DNA from: an archaeon
GTDB lineage: Archaea; EX4484-52; GLR71
Length of the DNA stretch: 43,987 bases
Assembly: GCA_013138805.1 (NCBI GenBank)
Contig: WTCA01000012.1
Coordinates: forward strand, 1 to 43,987
Direction: 5' to 3'
Below are positions 16,741 to 39,443 of this stretch, piece after piece. Both the position numbers and the translations under genes were made by a program. Under the pieces are notes generated by a model. The model worked only from the letters and a program-made list of their open reading frames with translations, was not told where the DNA came from and did no database searches. The number at the start of each line of letters is the position of its first letter. Position 1 is the stretch's first letter.

Positions 16741-16859
16741 TTATACATATCCTGAGCGACACAGATCATAGCAAAATGTGTAATATGTTCTATCCCGTCT
16801 AAAAATTATATATACTAATGCAGACAAAATTAGATAAGCACATAATTACTGGTGATATT

Positions 16860-17699
16860 ATGGGATTTCTTGACAAGATTAAAGAATCAGTAGGCTTGGA
16901 TTCTAAAAAAGGGATAAATGTTCCGGCTCTGGACAAAGATCTTGACCTGCTGAACACACAACAGGCAGCACAGGAAAACACTATGCAACCGGAGATGGAA
17001 ACACAGGAAGCTCCTGCAGCAGATATACCTTCAAATACTGAAAACATACCATCTAATACAGATTTACCTCCAAATGCTGAAAATATGCCCTCAAATGATA
17101 TAGAAGGTATCCCTCCCTCTCCAGAACCAATTCAGGAACCATCCCAATCCTCAGACATTCAGCCGGAAATAAAAGATGCAAAAAATGAAAAAGGTAGCGA
17201 AAATATTGCAGATATCCAGACACCTGAAGAAAGCACCAAAGATCAGGATATACAAGACAATGTTCAGAATACAATACCGGCCAATGAGCCGGACACACAG
17301 GACAATGCCTGGGATACAGTACCGGAAAGCACACATTTAGATAATGATACTGCAGGCAATTTTGAAAATATAAGGCAGGAAAAGATGAAGATTTCAGGCG
17401 AGCTGGAAAGGCTCACAACAGAGATTGACGGAATCATAAAGAACCTTGAAAATGAGCTGAAAGATGGCAAGATTGTAAAGAAGACAGAAACAAAACCAGA
17501 GAACAATACAAAAGAAGACAGGAAAGCACCAGATGTTTCGAAAAAAGAAAAAGAGATAAAAAAAACTGATAACAAAGCAGACGATACTGCCTCAGCCAAA
17601 CAATCTGAAGGATCAAAGAAGATTACAGAAAAAGACATAGAAGCGCTTGAGGACTTTCTTTCAAAAGAGAACATAAAAAACATGCCCAAATCCAAATAA
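16860..17699 (+). CDS. disordered acidic protein with N-terminal amphipathic helix and C-terminal coiled coil
   Basis: A 279-aa protein. Residues 1-12 (MGFLDKIKESVG) form an amphipathic helix like a membrane-targeting sequence. Residues about 30-160 are low-complexity Pro/Glu/Asn/Asp-rich repeats (IPSNT, DNVQNTIP), and about 170-205 a coiled coil (ISGELERLTTEIDGIIKNLENEL). A Lys/Glu-rich linker and a short helix end the chain. I start at the ATG preceded by GGTGAT with proper spacing, not at an upstream ATG. The architecture repeats that of the protein at 38541-39245 and of the SepF N-terminus. A peripheral membrane scaffold is possible. Confidence 0.75.
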   Translation: MGFLDKIKESVGLDSKKGINVPALDKDLDLLNTQQAAQENTMQPEMETQEAPAADIPSNTENIPSNTDLPPNAENMPSNDIEGIPPSPEPIQEPSQSSDIQPEIKDAKNEKGSENIADIQTPEESTKDQDIQDNVQNTIPANEPDTQDNAWDTVPESTHLDNDTAGNFENIRQEKMKISGELERLTTEIDGIIKNLENELKDGKIVKKTETKPENNTKEDRKAPDVSKKEKEIKKTDNKADDTASAKQSEGSKKITEKDIEALEDFLSKENIKNMPKSK

Positions 17700-27100: not shown

Positions 27101-27445
27101 ATGGGATTTTTAAGCAAGATAATTAGCGAGCCTGAAGGCGAAGAGATAAACGAGACAAATTATCTCGAAATTGATGATATAGACCCGTCCCACCAGGGAA
27201 AATTCATGATCCGTGTTGAGACCCTTTCTGAATTTTCAGACACGAGCGTGATACAGGAATATGTAAGGAACGGCGACATTGTCTGGGTAAGAATAAAGCC
27301 ACTGAAAGAGAAAGACATAACCGAACTTAAAAGGGCTGTTGACAGGCTCAGGAAGACCTGTGTAGCAATAAACGGCGATGTCGCAGGCATTGATGAAGAT
27401 TATCTTGTTCTGACACCTCCTGGCGTAAGCATACATAGAAGGTAA
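27101..27445 (+). CDS. sepF: cell division protein SepF, archaeal type
   Basis: A 114-aa SepF. The N-terminal amphipathic membrane-targeting helix (MGFLSKIISE) is followed by an acidic linker and the SepF core (KFMIRVETLSEFSDTSVIQEYVRNGDIVWVRIKPL...LKRAVDRLRKTCVAINGDVAGIDEDYLVLTPPGV). Archaeal SepF tethers FtsZ to the membrane, so this genome should also have ftsZ, which is not in the window. A GAGGAG ribosome site precedes the ATG. A TTTTAAAT promoter-like box lies about 75 bp upstream. Confidence 0.9.
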   Translation: MGFLSKIISEPEGEEINETNYLEIDDIDPSHQGKFMIRVETLSEFSDTSVIQEYVRNGDIVWVRIKPLKEKDITELKRAVDRLRKTCVAINGDVAGIDEDYLVLTPPGVSIHRR

Positions 27446-29642: not shown

Positions 29643-29915
29643 TTACTTCTTCAATGCTTTCTCAAACTCTGCGCCGAAAAGGTTGACTTCATCTTTTGTC
29701 CTTTTAACAGCATCCATAATTGCCTTTTTAGGGTCGCTGGCCTTGACGACAAGCCTGGGTAAACCAATATACGGATGTGACTTCTCATATGCTGCAAAAG
29801 ACACAGAAGAATCATTCCATAGTGCTTTCCTAAGAAGATTTGGAAGAGTATGTTGGCTATCAGATATCTCTATTATCAATGTTTCCTTATCTTGTTTCTC
29901 AATCTTCAGCTGCAT
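29643..29915 (-). CDS. rpoL: DNA-directed RNA polymerase subunit L (Rpb11/Rpo11)
   Basis: A 90-aa RNA polymerase assembly subunit that pairs with RpoD. The family core is HTLPNLLRKALW followed by a short strand (VSFAAYEKSHPYIGLPRLVVKA) and the ALKK end. I use the inner ATG (MQLKIEK) rather than an upstream GTG three codons earlier. The 219-base gap to tfs holds only AT-rich DNA and a promoter-like 14-mer that also occurs in front of the mrp operon. Confidence 0.92.
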   Translation of the reverse strand: MQLKIEKQDKETLIIEISDSQHTLPNLLRKALWNDSSVSFAAYEKSHPYIGLPRLVVKASDPKKAIMDAVKRTKDEVNLFGAEFEKALKK

Positions 29916-30076
29916 ACAGACCACATATAATAGGTAGATAATTATTTGTTCATCTTAGTATATAAATCTATCATTGAAGTGTCCCAGACTCCAACTTTTA
30001 TATATACTCAACTTAACTTTTTAAAAGTATCGCAAAGAGTTATGACAGAACATATACTTATACTATAAACAGGAAA

Positions 30077-31186
30077 TCAGAACCTGAAATCCTCATAGAT
30101 TCTGAGCATCTTCCTGTCAATGCTTGGAGAAGTCTCATCAATGACCTGGTAAAACAGCTTGTTGTCTATAGAAAAAGAGTTGTTGACCACATAATCAATA
30201 GCTGCAATCTCAAGAGCATTTGTCACTATACGCCTTATATCCCTACCGCTATATCTTAAATTTCCGTTTTCCTTGTCTTCCATATAATGCACTATATCAT
30301 CCACATTGACCTCCGGTACATATCCATCAATCTGCCTGTCAAGCTCAAGACCGAATATGAAACCCTTCTCTTTCTCTCCTGGAGGCGGTATATAAAGAGA
30401 TGAATTGAACCTGCTGAGAAGAGCACTGTCAATCATATCCGGCCTGTTTGTCGCAGCTATAAGGTTTATCTCTGTCTTATCAATCCCGTCTATCTGCGTA
30501 AGAAGAGTGGACAGCGTCCTGTTGGATGCGGAGTCCGTACCGTCCCGGCTCATAGATATTGCATCAATCTCATCTATGAAAAGAACATTGCTCTCATCCT
30601 CCTTAAGCTTTGAGAATATCTTTGATATGTTCCTGCTTGTCTCACCGTAATACTTGGAAAGCACATTTGAAGCGTCAATGAAATACATAGTGCTGTCAGC
30701 AATCTCGTTTGAAAGCGCCCCGGAAAAAAAAGACTTGCCACACCCAGGAGGACCATACATAAGTACTGTATTACCAGCCCTTATCTTAAAAGGCATATCC
30801 TTAGTCCTGGGATATATGATATGCACCTTAAACTTTTCTTTGATATAATCATATCCTATTATGTCATCAAATGTGAAATCCGATGTCACCACAGCCTTAT
30901 CAATCCAGTCATCCTCACCATTATCATCATCTATAACAGACATATCCCCAGAATTTTTCTTATCAGTCTGGCAGGCCGCCGCAAGATCCCATGACTCATT
31001 CTGCACCTCTTTGTACAGTGCATAGGCCCTGTACCTCACATCAAAATTATTCTCAAGCATAGCCTTTACAAGATAGTCTTTTGAGATATAAAGGTGCTTA
31101 AGGGAGTGCAAAGGCTCTGTGCTTCTTATTTCCCTGCTCTTCTTGAGATGCGACATCCCTTTGTCTATATAGAGCTGGTTAAGCAC
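30077..31186 (-). CDS. Vps4/CdvC-like AAA ATPase with N-terminal helical (MIT-like) domain
   Basis: A 369-aa protein. Residues 1-65 form three helices reminiscent of an MIT domain (LYISKDYLVKAMLENNFDVRYRAYALYKEVQ). A linker of about 40 acidic residues leads to a classic AAA domain: Walker A GPPGCGKS (145-152), pore loop SKYYGET (aromatic Y179/Y180), Walker B LFIDEI (202-207), sensor-1 N247 in AATNRPD, one clear arginine finger R259 and YSGRDIRRIV. This is the pattern of Vps4/katanin ATPases, which disassemble ESCRT-III filaments. The start is a GTG five bases after GTGAT. It ends an operon with the ESCRT-III-like gene 16 bases upstream. Confidence 0.85.
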   Translation of the reverse strand: MLNQLYIDKGMSHLKKSREIRSTEPLHSLKHLYISKDYLVKAMLENNFDVRYRAYALYKEVQNESWDLAAACQTDKKNSGDMSVIDDDNGEDDWIDKAVVTSDFTFDDIIGYDYIKEKFKVHIIYPRTKDMPFKIRAGNTVLMYGPPGCGKSFFSGALSNEIADSTMYFIDASNVLSKYYGETSRNISKIFSKLKEDESNVLFIDEIDAISMSRDGTDSASNRTLSTLLTQIDGIDKTEINLIAATNRPDMIDSALLSRFNSSLYIPPPGEKEKGFIFGLELDRQIDGYVPEVNVDDIVHYMEDKENGNLRYSGRDIRRIVTNALEIAAIDYVVNNSFSIDNKLFYQVIDETSPSIDRKMLRIYEDFRF

Positions 31187-31202
31187 AGGCCATCACACTT
31201 TT

Positions 31203-31886
31203 TTAGGGGTGTCCCTCTGTTTCAGCCATCAGAGGAGTATTCACAAGATTGTAGGCTTCCTGTATCTCAGTGCTGTAATCTTCAGGATTCCTGGATATAT
31301 CTTCAAATATCCTGTCCATTTCTTCATCATATACATCTATCCCGCCAATCTCTGCCTGAGCATCAAGCATATTCTCTTTTGACAGCATATAGCCTCTCAT
31401 CTGCATAGGCTCGGAAAGACTATCTGAATCCATATAGTCCTTTATCTTCTCAAATCCTGATATGACTGCCGCAAGATCCGTATCCCTTACCTCCGGACTA
31501 AGATAGCTCAATGCCTTCTCATAAAGAAGATCCTTTCTGGTAACATCAATGTCCATGACAATAGGAGTATACTCAAACACTTTCTGCCTGTACAGCTCTT
31601 CCTCCTTTGACAGGACATCCTCATGCCTCTCAAGCTTCTGCATCGTGACCAGATATGATTTTGCCCTGTCCATATTGCCTTCATCTGCAAGACGTCTCAC
31701 ATGCTGGAAAATTTCATGCTTCTCCTTCACTATCTTCTCTTTCGCAGACCTGCACACAGAAGACCTTCTTGATGCGTTCTTCTGCTTCATCTTAACTGCA
31801 TGGATATATGTCTCAAGATTGCCTATCATGACATCTATATCCGGTCTTTTCTCTTCTTTTCTCTTAAATACATTCATAATACTCAT
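31203..31886 (-). CDS. ESCRT-III/CdvB-like (Snf7-like) helical protein
   Basis: A 227-aa all-helical protein. The N-terminus is short and basic (NVFKRKEEKR), followed by a long basic helical hairpin (about 20-105). The hairpin contains an ESCRT-III-like turn DEGNMDRAKSYLVTMQKLERHEDVLSKEEELY. Further helices lead to an acidic C-terminus (YDEEMDRIFEDISRNPEDYSTEIQEA). Basic front, acidic tail and the GN-x3-AK hairpin are hallmarks of Snf7-fold ESCRT-III proteins, whose polymers remodel membranes. The tail may bind the MIT-like domain of the adjacent ATPase; no exact MIM motif is seen. Start: ATG at 31886, after GGGGTTGA; another ATG lies three codons downstream. Confidence 0.6.
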   Translation of the reverse strand: MSIMNVFKRKEEKRPDIDVMIGNLETYIHAVKMKQKNASRRSSVCRSAKEKIVKEKHEIFQHVRRLADEGNMDRAKSYLVTMQKLERHEDVLSKEEELYRQKVFEYTPIVMDIDVTRKDLLYEKALSYLSPEVRDTDLAAVISGFEKIKDYMDSDSLSEPMQMRGYMLSKENMLDAQAEIGGIDVYDEEMDRIFEDISRNPEDYSTEIQEAYNLVNTPLMAETEGHP

Positions 31887-31907
31887 AGACTTCAACCCCA
31901 AATCATC

Positions 31908-32663
31908 TCAACAGGATGGCAGATAATCCAGATCTTTCCAGAAGCATGCATCATCCATAAACCTGTCATGCTTGTCTATATTCTTCTCTTCAAGGACTGT
32001 ATATTCCTTTGACTGAACAGCAACAGCCTCAAGATATGAATTTATCTTGCCGATATGTGATGCCATCACATCTTTCCTTAGCACATACACCTGAATATCC
32101 ATCAGCTGTGACTCATACTCATCCAGAAGCTTTCTCTCCTTATCATCAAGGACATGATACAGTTCCGGATGAGTGTCAAGAAGCGATGCCGGTTCGTCTT
32201 TCCTGCAGAAGATAGCAGATATGCTGTCTTTTGCACGGGAAAATACGCCTTTCTCTTTTTTTGCCACCCTGTCTTGCACAAATTTCTCCACAATATCCCC
32301 CCTACCGGCAGGCAGACCCATACCAGACATATCATCGTATATGCAGCTCAGGAACTTCTCAATCCTTGACCTGTCATTTGACCCTATGACAAGAAGGCGT
32401 GTGTCCGGATTGTAGCAGATCTCAACAGTCCCCCCGCCTAATATGTTTGAGAACGCATACTCCTCAGTCTTCTTTCCTGACCCCTCTTTCTTCTTGGCTG
32501 AGCCTGCCTTATTATCCCTGCATAGCTTGCCTGAAAATACAGACAGCGCCTTGTCAAAAGCAGCAGCATCAACCCTGTCTATATAGACATCCATGTCACC
32601 AAACCTGCAATACCCCATTGTCTTTTTTGGAAACATGAATATCTTTAGCAATGAAGCCGGCAT
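31908..32663 (-). CDS. unrecognised protein, third member of the ESCRT-like operon
   Basis: A 251-aa protein with no family that I recognise. The N-terminal half looks alpha/beta: a MDVYIDRVDAAAFDKALSVF unit and a second TVEICYNPDTRLLVIGSND-type unit, separated by a Lys/Gly-rich loop at about 50-70. The C-terminal half (from about 120) is helical and ends in a probable coiled coil (KERKLLDEYESQLMDIQVYVLRKD). The division into a globular front and helical tail is like CdvA in shape, but I see no PRC barrel. It lies 21 bases upstream of the ESCRT-III-like gene and probably belongs to the same machinery as an adaptor or membrane recruiter. Alternative start: ATG at 32636. Confidence 0.6.
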   Translation of the reverse strand: MPASLLKIFMFPKKTMGYCRFGDMDVYIDRVDAAAFDKALSVFSGKLCRDNKAGSAKKKEGSGKKTEEYAFSNILGGGTVEICYNPDTRLLVIGSNDRSRIEKFLSCIYDDMSGMGLPAGRGDIVEKFVQDRVAKKEKGVFSRAKDSISAIFCRKDEPASLLDTHPELYHVLDDKERKLLDEYESQLMDIQVYVLRKDVMASHIGKINSYLEAVAVQSKEYTVLEEKNIDKHDRFMDDACFWKDLDYLPSC

Positions 32664-32734: not shown

Positions 32735-33055
32735 CTACCCAAAAACCAGAACATACCCTAAAACAAACACAATACCCGCAAGCATCCACAATAGATATGT
32801 GGACAGGTCTTCAGAATGAGCCTTCTTAAAAGCAGCCATCTTAAAAAATGATACAGCAGTCCTATAGAACGACGCGGATGGTACCCTCTGCGTATCAGGA
32901 TCCAAAGAATTGCCGCACGCATAAGGTTTTCTTGCTGATAAAGATACAGGAGAATCATCCCTGGCAAAAATATAGAATATATACACAAACACAGAAAATA
33001 AGACAACAGTGACAGTCCACCCGTCACTTATCACACCAGCAACAACTTCCATCAT
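32735..33055 (-). CDS. small membrane protein of the Mrp cluster
   Basis: About 106 aa with an N-terminal transmembrane helix (WTVTVVLFSVFVYIFYIF) and a C-terminal one (YLLWMLAGIVFVLGYVLVF). Between them, a YACGNSLDP...VPSASFYRTAVSFF segment resembles the cytoplasmic tail of hydrogenase-4/MrpA-type large subunits. It overlaps the 3' end of the mrpD-like gene, so it is translated with it. It may be a split-off or accessory part of the antiporter. The outer GTG start is unlikely; GTGAT precedes the ATGs at 33055 and 33052. Confidence 0.65.
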   Translation of the reverse strand: MMEVVAGVISDGWTVTVVLFSVFVYIFYIFARDDSPVSLSARKPYACGNSLDPDTQRVPSASFYRTAVSFFKMAAFKKAHSEDLSTYLLWMLAGIVFVLGYVLVFG

Positions 33056-33059
33056 ATCA

Positions 33060-34526
33060 TCACACCCCACCTATGCCCAGGACAGTCCTGATATAAAGCT
33101 CCCTGTCAAGGCCTGAACCTGCAATAGCCGCCATAACATCAGTCACAGGACTCTGGAACACACCAAAAGCTACACACAAGCCGGCAAGAATAACAAGCAC
33201 AAGCTTAAGATCAAGATCAAGAGATATCCTGCTGTCCCCTTTCATATTAGAGAAAAATATCATGAACATCATCTTGGAACAATATGCAAGCGTAAGGACA
33301 GAGACAAGCATTGCGGCAATGGCGCCGAGAGGAAACACTTCAAAGCCTGCTATATATATTATAAGCTTGCTTGAAAATCCGTTGAACAGCGGAAGGCCTG
33401 CAAGGGAAAGCGCACCAACACCAAAAGATGCGAGAAGAAGTGGATTGCCTGACCCCAGACCGCCCATCCTGTCAAGATTGCTTGACCTAAAATGCCTTAT
33501 CACAATATATGAAGCAGCAAAAAGAAGCATATCTATTATCACAAGATTAACCAGATGGTATAAAGCACCTGTATAGCTCCCGATACCCAACCCGAAAAGC
33601 ACATATCCGCTCTGGGATATTGCTGAATATGCCAGCAGTTTTTTGAGATTATGCGTCTGAAAAGCAAGTACCGCACCAACAACCATTGTCAGAAGCGATA
33701 ATGATATCAAAAGCCAGGACATATCAAAGCCGCCGATTGTTGCAGCAAGCCGGAATATTGTATAAAGACCTATTGTTGTCCCGCCTGCAGTGAACATAAG
33801 CCCTAAAGACAAAGGTGTATACCTTATAACAGACGGTTTCCATGCATGGAACGGTGCAGCAGCTGCTTTAAAAGAAAAGCCGCAGAGAAGAAGCCCAAGA
33901 CCTGCCAGGGAAGCTGTTGTAGAGGAATTAGTCAGGCTTCTGCTTATGTCGGCCATGTTTAGTGTGCCTAAAGACCCATAGATGAACGCTATGCCTAAAA
34001 GTATGAGCGATGTAGCGAAACTGCCCATAATAAGAAACCTCACGGAGCTCGCAACAGAGCCCATCCTACCGGAATATGACACAAGAGCATATGACGCAAT
34101 GCTCAGTATTTCAAAAAAGACAAAAAGGTTGAAGATGTCACCAGTCATAGATACTCCTGCAAGCCCCAAGAACAGAAGCAGAAAAAGAGCATAAAATTCC
34201 TTTTTATCATCATGTATTTCCCTCCTGCTTATGACAAGAGCAGCAAGCGCGGTGACAGCGACAAGAGACATTACAAGATAGCCAACCAAGTCAACAGCAA
34301 AGCAGATGCCCAACGGAGGGTTCCATCCAAGCATATTATATGTAATAATCTTGCTGGACATGATTTCAGAAAAGTCCATAAGCAAAAGACCCAAAGATAT
34401 GAACACGGCCCAGAAAGAGATTCTCCAGTGATAATCTTTATGCCTGCCGCTTGTAATAGTTATACCAAGAACAGCAGCAAGCAACACAGGTACGATTAAA
34501 TTGAAATACGCCATATAAAAACACAT
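33060..34526 (-). CDS. mrpD: Mrp-type antiporter ND4/ND5-like subunit (MrpD)
   Basis: A 488-aa membrane protein with about 14 hydrophobic segments, the proton-conducting subunit type shared by Mrp antiporters, complex I and group 4 hydrogenases. Key ionisable residues are present: E139 in FVFFEILSI, K220 and the AAAAPFHAWKP helix (H227, K230), plus a later Lys in LKKLLAYSAISQSGY. It would move H+ or Na+ across the membrane with the other Mrp subunits. A TATTTTATATAG box about 25 bp upstream fits a leaderless start at 34526 or at the ATG at 34514. It is separated from mrpC by a gene on the opposite strand. Confidence 0.88.
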   Translation of the reverse strand: MCFYMAYFNLIVPVLLAAVLGITITSGRHKDYHWRISFWAVFISLGLLLMDFSEIMSSKIITYNMLGWNPPLGICFAVDLVGYLVMSLVAVTALAALVISRREIHDDKKEFYALFLLLFLGLAGVSMTGDIFNLFVFFEILSIASYALVSYSGRMGSVASSVRFLIMGSFATSLILLGIAFIYGSLGTLNMADISRSLTNSSTTASLAGLGLLLCGFSFKAAAAPFHAWKPSVIRYTPLSLGLMFTAGGTTIGLYTIFRLAATIGGFDMSWLLISLSLLTMVVGAVLAFQTHNLKKLLAYSAISQSGYVLFGLGIGSYTGALYHLVNLVIIDMLLFAASYIVIRHFRSSNLDRMGGLGSGNPLLLASFGVGALSLAGLPLFNGFSSKLIIYIAGFEVFPLGAIAAMLVSVLTLAYCSKMMFMIFFSNMKGDSRISLDLDLKLVLVILAGLCVAFGVFQSPVTDVMAAIAGSGLDRELYIRTVLGIGGV

Positions 34527-34617: not shown

Positions 34618-35115
34618 ATGGACAAGGTAATACATATGCATGTACTTGCGCATATCCCTGTAAATTTCACAATAGGCTACCTGTTTTATATGATAATAGG
34701 ACAGCCGGCAGACATCGGTTTTCTTCTCGCGATATCTGCTGCAGGATTTCTAATAGACATAGATCATGCAATAACTTTCATGATGGCAAAAAGGTCAATT
34801 CACCCGACAAAATTCTACAGGTGGCTTAGATACCAGCTGGACCATTCAGTACCAAGTTTCTACATATGCCACACTTTTGAGTTCATAGCATTCCTTTACA
34901 TACTCTCGTTCAGTTACTCATTCGCCTACGCCATGTTTATAGGATACGCACTTCACCTGGCAACAGATATGGCGGTGAACATAAGAAAAGACATCATCAA
35001 AGGCGAATCATCTATAAACAGGTTCAAATACTGGTCAGGAACTTATTTCATGCTCTACCCAGGATACAATTACATAAAAGTGAAGCTTTCAGGCCCGATA
35101 ACTACTTCTGTTTGA
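34618..35115 (+). CDS. membrane-bound metal-dependent hydrolase-like protein (DUF457/YdjM type)
   Basis: A 165-aa membrane protein with four hydrophobic segments and the histidine/aspartate pattern of the YdjM/DUF457 group: H8 and H12 near the N-terminus, a LIDIDHA motif around 45-51, QLDHSVPSFYICHTFEF, and GYALHLATD. These residues probably bind metal at the membrane face. The substrate is unknown; lipid-like phosphates have been suggested for related families. The gene is inserted, on the opposite strand, between mrpC and mrpD. A TTATTTATATATC promoter lies about 30 bp upstream. Confidence 0.8.
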   Translation: MDKVIHMHVLAHIPVNFTIGYLFYMIIGQPADIGFLLAISAAGFLIDIDHAITFMMAKRSIHPTKFYRWLRYQLDHSVPSFYICHTFEFIAFLYILSFSYSFAYAMFIGYALHLATDMAVNIRKDIIKGESSINRFKYWSGTYFMLYPGYNYIKVKLSGPITTSV

Positions 35116-38274: not shown

Positions 38275-38555
38275 ATAAACAAAATCAGTAGCTGAAACGG
38301 GCTTCAGAAAGCCCATAAAAATGCTAAGCATTTTTAGGGTCCCAAAAATTTATGATTTTTTAGGACCCGGATATCTATATGACATTCAATCCTACGGATT
38401 GAAGTCATGATTTAATCTTAGGCTACCTACTTAAAGGTCATGATTTAATTGATACTGTTCGCTTTGCTCAGGTGGCAAGCTTATTGAATTTACAAAGTAG
38501 CAAGTTGCGGAGTATTAAATCCAGAAAGAAATAAACAAAATCAGTAGCTGAAACG
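38275..38555. repeat. hairpin-rich element bounded by an exact 25-bp direct repeat
   Basis: An identical 25-base string stands at 38275-38299 and 38531-38555. The right copy contains the stop and last four codons of the minus-strand gene at 38541, so the left copy is a duplicated gene end. Between them lie 231 bp without a gene but with strong palindromes: GGGCTT/AAGCCC at 38299-38314, AAAAATGC/GCATTTTT at 38317-38335, GGGTCC...GGACCC at 38337-38368, and TTCAATCC/GGATTGAA at 38385-38403. A 13-bp direct repeat (GTCATGATTTAAT) follows at 38404 and 38437. The preceding 38076-38274 is AT-rich with one CCGGA/TCCGG hairpin near 38165 and no gene. Confidence 0.7.
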
Positions 38556-39245
38556 CCTTGTCCTTTCTTCTATAACATTAAGTTTCTCAATGACAAGACT
38601 TACCTGATTCTTAAGGTCTCGAAGCTCTAAAGCCATATCGATTCTCTGCGACACAGGCATGTCTGATTGCTGTTGCATATCAACGACAGGCTTTGGTGCC
38701 TGCGGATATTCAGGGATTGCCTGACCCACAGAAGGCATAGGAGAAGGTGCCTGTGTCTGGGCAGGAATCTGGCCTGTATTCATATCAAAGCCGCCAGGGG
38801 CAGAAACTGGCTGGGACGCAGGATAAGCAGCCTGTGCCATCACAGTCTGGTCCTGCGGATACGCCTGATCTGTCGGGTTGGCTCCAGGAGACATAGAAGG
38901 ATCTAAAGCTAAGGCCGCTTGCTGATTTATCTGATTAGGCTGACCGGGAGGCACAGTTCCTGCATCAAGAGGATTTTGTAGCGGCAGGCCGGAAATATCA
39001 GGTTGCGGAGCATCCCTTATTATCTGGTTCGGCGGATTTAAAGGTGTTTTAGAATCAAGGTTCAGGCCGCCTGAATAGTCAGCATTGACACTTGCCTCAA
39101 GCACTTTTGATGATTTTGACATGTCTGCGGTCGGGTCAGACTTCAGGATATCATCTATATTGCTGCTAGCACCGTCAAGATTTGCCCCGGAAGCCGCATG
39201 CTTTTTACCTGTCACGGTTTCTTTAAGTTTAGAAAATAAATCCAT
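38541..39245 (-). CDS. Pro/Gln-rich disordered protein with N-terminal amphipathic helix and C-terminal coiled coil
   Basis: A 234-aa protein: N-terminal amphipathic helix MDLFSKLKETVTGKK, a long low-complexity region rich in Pro, Gln, Ala and Asn (about 30-185), then a C-terminal coiled coil (RIDMALELRDLKNQVSLVIEKLNVIEERTRR). The plan is the same as in the protein at 16860. A GTGAT ribosome site sets the ATG at 39245. A peripheral membrane scaffold is an inference. The final codons are part of the 25-bp repeat that bounds the element downstream. Confidence 0.7.
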   Translation of the reverse strand: MDLFSKLKETVTGKKHAASGANLDGASSNIDDILKSDPTADMSKSSKVLEASVNADYSGGLNLDSKTPLNPPNQIIRDAPQPDISGLPLQNPLDAGTVPPGQPNQINQQAALALDPSMSPGANPTDQAYPQDQTVMAQAAYPASQPVSAPGGFDMNTGQIPAQTQAPSPMPSVGQAIPEYPQAPKPVVDMQQQSDMPVSQRIDMALELRDLKNQVSLVIEKLNVIEERTRRFSY

Positions 39246-39443
39246 AATAATCACGCAAAAATAAGTTCATATAGGAATTGCATATACAATATTATTGACA
39301 AGGACTATATAAATAATTACTGTAAAGTCTTTAGCTATCAAAACTTACAATAAAAAAATAAGGTTTATAAAGATATATATGAATTAACTATATATCTAAT
39401 TATATCTAATTCACATTGAAATGGATTGACTTATGGTGTTTTT

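Follow-up and report, generated by a model that had tools for sequence, protein, structure and literature searches.

The described systems closest to the locus reported here are CdvABC of Thermoproteota and Thaumarchaeota and the minimal ESCRT system of Thermoplasmata. Thaumarchaeota keep both FtsZ and the Cdv system. The Thermoplasmata system consists of Vps4, ESCRT-III and the arCOG07400 beta-barrel protein (PMC10936438). In the 'Main' euryarchaeal ESCRT clade (Thermococcales), Vps4 carries the pore loop LSKY(F/Y)GE, and TBP-like/adaptin-appendage domains recur in accessory proteins there and in other archaeal ESCRT loci (PMC10936438). DPANN archaea have been stated to have no ESCRT/Cdv proteins (PMC10117752, PMC8970359), and ESCRT-III has been listed only in Asgard and TACK (PMC8178401).

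Analysis of a 43,987-nucleotide stretch of archaeal DNA (the window) led to an operon that we regard as a new, diverged ESCRT-III/Vps4 variant, its function being inferred. Searches of open-access texts gave no report of such an operon. Three genes on the minus strand are transcribed in the order third gene (31908-32663, 251 aa), ESCRT-III-like gene (31203-31886, 227 aa) and Vps4-type AAA ATPase gene (30077-31186, 369 aa, GTG start). They are separated by gaps of 21 (31887-31907) and 16 bases (31187-31202) taken from the sequence, and the ORF coordinates confirmed the compact arrangement given in the original prediction. The three open reading frames are real and not due to chance. The next gene downstream of the ATPase gene is rpoL (29643-29924), and as it lies 152 bases off behind an AT-rich, TATA-like stretch, the ATPase gene is probably the last of the transcription unit. 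A gene at 32735-33070, for a 111-aa protein without a Pfam match, lies upstream of the third operon gene at a distance of 71 bases, and in the congeners that were compared its place between the operon and an mnhD-like gene is conserved.

The order of components, an accessory protein with an N-terminal globular domain and a long helix, then ESCRT-III, then Vps4, is that of CdvABC (loci L099 and L107). The ATPase type and, by prediction, the ESCRT-III fold are likewise shared with CdvABC of Thermoproteota and Thaumarchaeota. Unlike in CdvABC, a PRC-barrel/CdvA signature is missing from the third protein, whose fold is predicted to be another one, the ESCRT-III-like protein shows no sign of a winged-helix C-terminus, MIT was not detected in the ATPase, and the host has retained FtsZ, SepF and PRC-barrel proteins. 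As in the Thermoplasmata system there are only three components, a divergent ATPase and no kinase/phosphatase, FHA or winged-helix genes, and both co-occur with FtsZ, the Thermoplasmata system in some of its hosts (PMC10936438). The two differ in that the third protein is predicted, at low confidence, as an alpha/beta domain with a long helix and not as a beta-barrel, arCOG07400 being compared by description. With the 'Main' euryarchaeal clade the locus shares the pore loop, here LSKYYGE, and grouping with its Vps4 was not rejected; the accessory domains of that clade (PMC10936438) may be compared with the third protein. Unlike in that clade there is no phosphatase neighbour, the ATPase branch is much longer and the ESCRT-III proteins show no direct sequence match. 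From the two nearest systems the locus differs in its third component, in how extremely its two core proteins have diverged and in its host.

The middle protein was predicted (AlphaFold2, eight sequences) to hold a short N-terminal helix, a hairpin of two long helices (residues 17-68 and 72-128, pLDDT about 80-92) and a flexible acidic C-terminal part. The mean pLDDT of the whole model was 71, and beyond residue 130 the model is poor, with poorly predicted helices. In a Foldseek search against the PDB, ranks 1-15 were all ESCRT-III/PspA/Vipp1 chains, as were 29 of the top 50 matches. CHMP1B gave the lowest E-values; IST1-CHMP1B, PspA, Vipp1, CHMP2A-CHMP3 and Loki CHMP4-7 were also among the top matches, CdvB of S. 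islandicus stood at rank 18, and E. coli PspA reached a TM of 0.72 over 114 columns. The best E-value was 0.019 and no single match was significant. The model thus shows the hairpin core of the ESCRT-III superfamily by predicted fold, at E-values of at least 0.019. Helical hairpins are, however, simple in shape. The GN-x3-AK motif on which the original assignment leaned lies at residues 70-76, at the tip of the predicted hairpin. Its other support, the basic front and acidic tail, is plain in the window protein (+6/-18), less marked in relatives and missing from the homologue of G007, a second genus of the family (-12/0). As it is not conserved among relatives, charge was dropped as evidence.

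Sequence comparisons were weaker in outcome. Searches of the middle protein in Pfam, NCBIfam and PDB sequences returned nothing, Pfam Snf7 included, and a genome-wide profile search of the host genome with the Snf7 model gave zero matches. A profile of the genus was then compared by hhalign with a reference set of thirteen archaeal ESCRT-III sequences, which came from Asgard, Thermoproteota, Thermococcales and one further lineage of small genomes, the last assigned by neighbourhood. The match, aligned at the hairpin tip, had a probability of 55%, an E-value of 1.2e-4 and a score of 34.9. For scale, CdvB scored 38.3 against the remaining reference sequences, the comparison score for Thermococcus ESCRT-III was 17.4, nine coiled-coil and other controls scored at most 25.7, and a block-shuffled null (n=100) had a mean of 13.8 and a maximum of 26.4. 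In the reverse direction one control, V-ATPase subunit D, reached 29.6 when compared with the window family, so the coiled-coil background is not negligible. Addition of the G007 member lowered the ESCRT-III match to a probability of 26%; the G007 protein alone gave no profile match to archaeal ESCRT-III, nor was there a direct hhalign match to Thermococcus ESCRT-III alone. On the predicted fold and the controlled profile comparison, membership of the ESCRT-III superfamily is probable rather than proven, and the original assignment therefore holds on evidence other than that first given for it. A weak ESCRT-III profile match in G106 was rejected as a coiled-coil false positive, since the gene belongs to a V-ATPase operon and looks like that of subunit D.

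The best-conserved part of the protein between the two genera is its C-terminal tail, with the invariant residues R-x3-DI-x2-NP-x2-Y...AY. We propose that this tail may be a lineage-specific ATPase-binding motif. No canonical MIM1 or MIM2 was seen by eye in the protein; an MIT-interacting motif occurs in many, not all, ESCRT-III proteins.

The ATPase consists of a helical N-terminal domain (about residues 1-72), an acidic linker, a single AAA domain and a C-terminal helix. Walker A (GPPGCGKS), Walker B (LFIDEIDA) and sensor (AATN) motifs are intact, and the finger motif SRF is that of Vps4, without the PG insertion (RPGR-type) of Cdc48; these motifs are as originally described. Pfam AAA matched at E=1.8e-33, and the best NCBIfam model was CdvC (5.6e-41, below the cut-off of the model). 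The pore loop is close to that of Thermococcales Vps4. Seven homologues were grouped in the tree with archaeal Vps4 (97/95), apart from Cdc48 D1, Cdc48 D2 and PAN, on a very long stem. In the AU test, placement with Cdc48 D1 gave p=0.018, with PAN p=0.044 and with Cdc48 D2 p=0.075, the last not rejected, and joining the euryarchaeal (Thermococcales-type) Vps4s gave p=0.36, also not rejected. The C-terminal helix resembled that of Vps4 (hhalign E=8e-6; Pfam Vps4_C E=0.0046 in the G007 homologue), a similar helix occurring in Cdc48-D2. The gene also adjoins that of the ESCRT-III-like protein, and ESCRT genes nearby are a published criterion for Vps4 (criterion ii, PMC10936438); this point depends on whether the neighbour is rightly assigned to ESCRT-III. 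Judged by its tree position, finger motif, C-terminal helix and neighbouring gene, the ATPase is of Vps4 type, as first claimed, and attachment to Cdc48-D2 is disfavoured.

The MIT-like front that had been attributed to it fared less well. Neither Pfam nor hhalign found MIT on the N-terminus, Pfam MIT had no match in the window ATPase or five relatives, and the full-length G007 homologue alone gave a sub-threshold match (E=0.077). The reference Vps4s of Thermococcus and of family f102 were also without a Pfam MIT match in the same test, and the N-terminal domain of the window ATPase is a plausible candidate for a divergent MIT. Matches of Vps4_C in G008 and G024 were found to be Cdc48 ends cut by contig borders and not further Vps4 genes.

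The third protein had been described as unrecognised, with a helical tail and in the place of a CdvA. Searches in Pfam, NCBIfam and PDB sequences returned nothing. The AlphaFold2 model is weak (mean pLDDT 52, mostly 65-82 in the N-domain) and predicts an N-terminal alpha/beta domain at about residues 17-113, of order beta-beta-alpha-beta-beta-beta-alpha (beta2-alpha-beta3-alpha), a disordered linker and a 59-residue C-terminal helix (168-226), before a conserved FW-K-DLDYLPS-like tail. Foldseek matched Flpp3, DcrB, PsbP, Roco COR and the beta2-adaptin appendage with a best E-value of 0.003. The first three we take to be Mog1/PsbP-like folds, and a Mog1/PsbP-like or adaptin-appendage-like domain is only a lead from the model. 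The protein is not CdvA, because it has no PRC barrel (no Pfam PRC match, and a predicted fold that differs from CdvA) and the PRC proteins of the host genome are encoded by separate short genes, stand-alone open frames of 99-101 aa.

The arrangement is conserved within the genus. The same three-gene order is present in the congeneric genomes G000, G001, G002, G003, G005 and G006. The ESCRT-III-like gene adjoins the ATPase gene in each of the other six genomes in the genus, and the third gene lies upstream in five of these six, the contig of G004 stopping just upstream of the middle gene. In G007 homologues of the two core genes (234 and 378 aa) lie side by side, without the third gene. Profile searches of 394 archaeal genomes gave no convincing match to the ESCRT-III-like protein beyond the genus and G007, nor to the third protein outside the genus, and no ESCRT-III homologue was detected in G008, a third genus of the family whose genome is 72% complete. 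Purifying selection acts on the operon genes: dN/dS is 0.06-0.09 in the ESCRT-III-like gene, 0.09 in the ATPase gene and 0.19-0.24 in the third gene. The flanks are syntenic in the genus, with Mrp antiporter genes on one side and rpoL, TFS, PCNA, marC and sepF on the other. Contamination was rejected, because the operon lies amid such archaeal housekeeping genes (the Mrp antiporter cluster; rpoL, TFS, PCNA and sepF) in separately assembled MAGs of the genus.

The host, with a genome of 1.33 Mb, is a DPANN archaeon related to Nanohaloarchaea. Its congeners are publicly listed as Candidatus Nanohaloarchaea archaeon, Candidatus Aenigmatarchaeota archaeon and DPANN group archaeon. Nanohaloarchaea are placed among Stenosarchaea in the NCBI taxonomy, and their membership of DPANN is debated in the field. 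Inside the Mrp antiporter cluster, on the opposite strand, a YdjM-like membrane protein gene (34618-35115; weak match, E=0.00095) is shared with G002 and absent from the syntenic stretches of the other congeners compared. Two unannotated proteins of the window (38541-39254 and 16818-17699) have amphipathic N-terminal starts, MDLFSKLKE and MGFLDKIKE, a low-complexity middle, a short helical C-terminus and no Pfam family.

The operon is most likely a minimal, strongly diverged ESCRT-III/Vps4 system for which we infer a role in membrane remodelling. In the proposed mechanism an N-terminal amphipathic helix of the ESCRT-III-like protein would bind the inner face of the cytoplasmic membrane, and the protein would polymerise via its long helical hairpin. 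The helical N-terminal domain of the ATPase would hold the conserved C-terminal tail, and the hexamer would pull subunits through its pore, so that the filament is remodelled or disassembled and the membrane is cut or budded. The third protein may be an adaptor or nucleator peculiar to this lineage, at the position of CdvA in the Thermoproteota operon. The process served is probably vesicle budding, partner-cell contact or late abscission rather than the main division ring, as the host has FtsZ, SepF and also PRC-barrel proteins, and on the same grounds the operon probably does not encode the sole or primary division ring.

In a first rival reading the operon would be the division machine itself, or an abscission step in which filament and Vps4 finish cytokinesis after or with the FtsZ-SepF ring in the manner of Cdv. 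We consider this doubtful. The gene order equals cdvA-cdvB-cdvC of the crenarchaeal loci L099 and L107, and a role in division has been proposed for the Thermoplasmata minimal systems (PMC10936438). The gene for SepF, the FtsZ membrane anchor (27101-27445, plus strand; Pfam SepF E=7e-14), is convergent with the operon and about 2.6-3 kb downstream of it; identified also by synteny and not part of the operon, it is a conserved neighbour, kept with PCNA, TFS, rpoL and the operon across the genus. This linkage is not kept in G007, however, where sepF is on another contig, and in G008 both FtsZ and SepF were found but an ESCRT-III homologue was not. FtsZ matches occur in 9/9 family genomes (1-4 each, 3 in the host), SepF in 9/9 and PRC-barrel proteins in 8/9. 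With CdvA absent and FtsZ and SepF present throughout, the operon is unlikely to act in place of FtsZ, and the term Cdv-like is not supported in its cell-division sense.

The other two readings concern the proteins themselves. That the middle protein is a PspA/Vipp1-like membrane-stress protein with an AAA ATPase, serving envelope protection and not scission, appears improbable. PspA and Vipp1 share the long helical hairpin and the superfamily, are among the best fold matches, and many of their query-normalised TM-scores (up to 0.47) exceed that of CHMP1B (about 0.2). The partner here, however, is a Vps4-type ATPase encoded directly downstream, as in archaeal ESCRT loci, and not Psp regulators; the lowest Foldseek E-values belong to CHMP1B, and the profile matches a reference set made up of archaeal ESCRT-III sequences. 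Still less probable is a Cdc48-derived or other AAA unfoldase that acts with two coiled-coil adaptors on protein substrates and is unrelated to ESCRT. Its long branch, the Cdc48-D2 result of the AU test, the VCP-like ATPases that were its best PDB matches by phmmer and the lack of an MIT recognised by Pfam would fit such an enzyme, but the single AAA domain, the SRF finger without the PG insertion, CdvC as best NCBIfam model, the tree support for Vps4 and a hairpin partner of predicted ESCRT-III-superfamily fold argue against it.

A diverged ESCRT-III/Vps4 system in this host would require the published statements on DPANN without ESCRT/Cdv and on ESCRT-III in Asgard and TACK only to be amended. 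Conserved in several Nanohaloarchaea-related genomes, the operon would add a further major branch of archaea to the range of ESCRT or indicate transfer into that branch. More tentatively, and with the balance against it, DPANN may hold a separate deep ESCRT-III/Vps4 branch with its own adaptor, a long helix bearing a Mog1/PsbP- or adaptin-appendage-like domain, which would recruit ESCRT-III to the membrane for budding or partner-cell contact while FtsZ divides the cell. Coexistence of ESCRT with FtsZ-SepF in a very small archaeal genome bears on the role of ESCRT when FtsZ is present, and a single filament protein with one ATPase and an adaptor would be a minimal version for reconstitution. 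In another small genome (G243, about 1.0 Mb, family f102) an ESCRT-III-like gene (212 aa) lies directly upstream of Vps4 (374 aa; L100, 4402-6222). This Vps4 and that of locus L101 (G294) group with the Thermococcales type (95/97); if the G243 host is a DPANN archaeon, ESCRT would have reached DPANN more than once.
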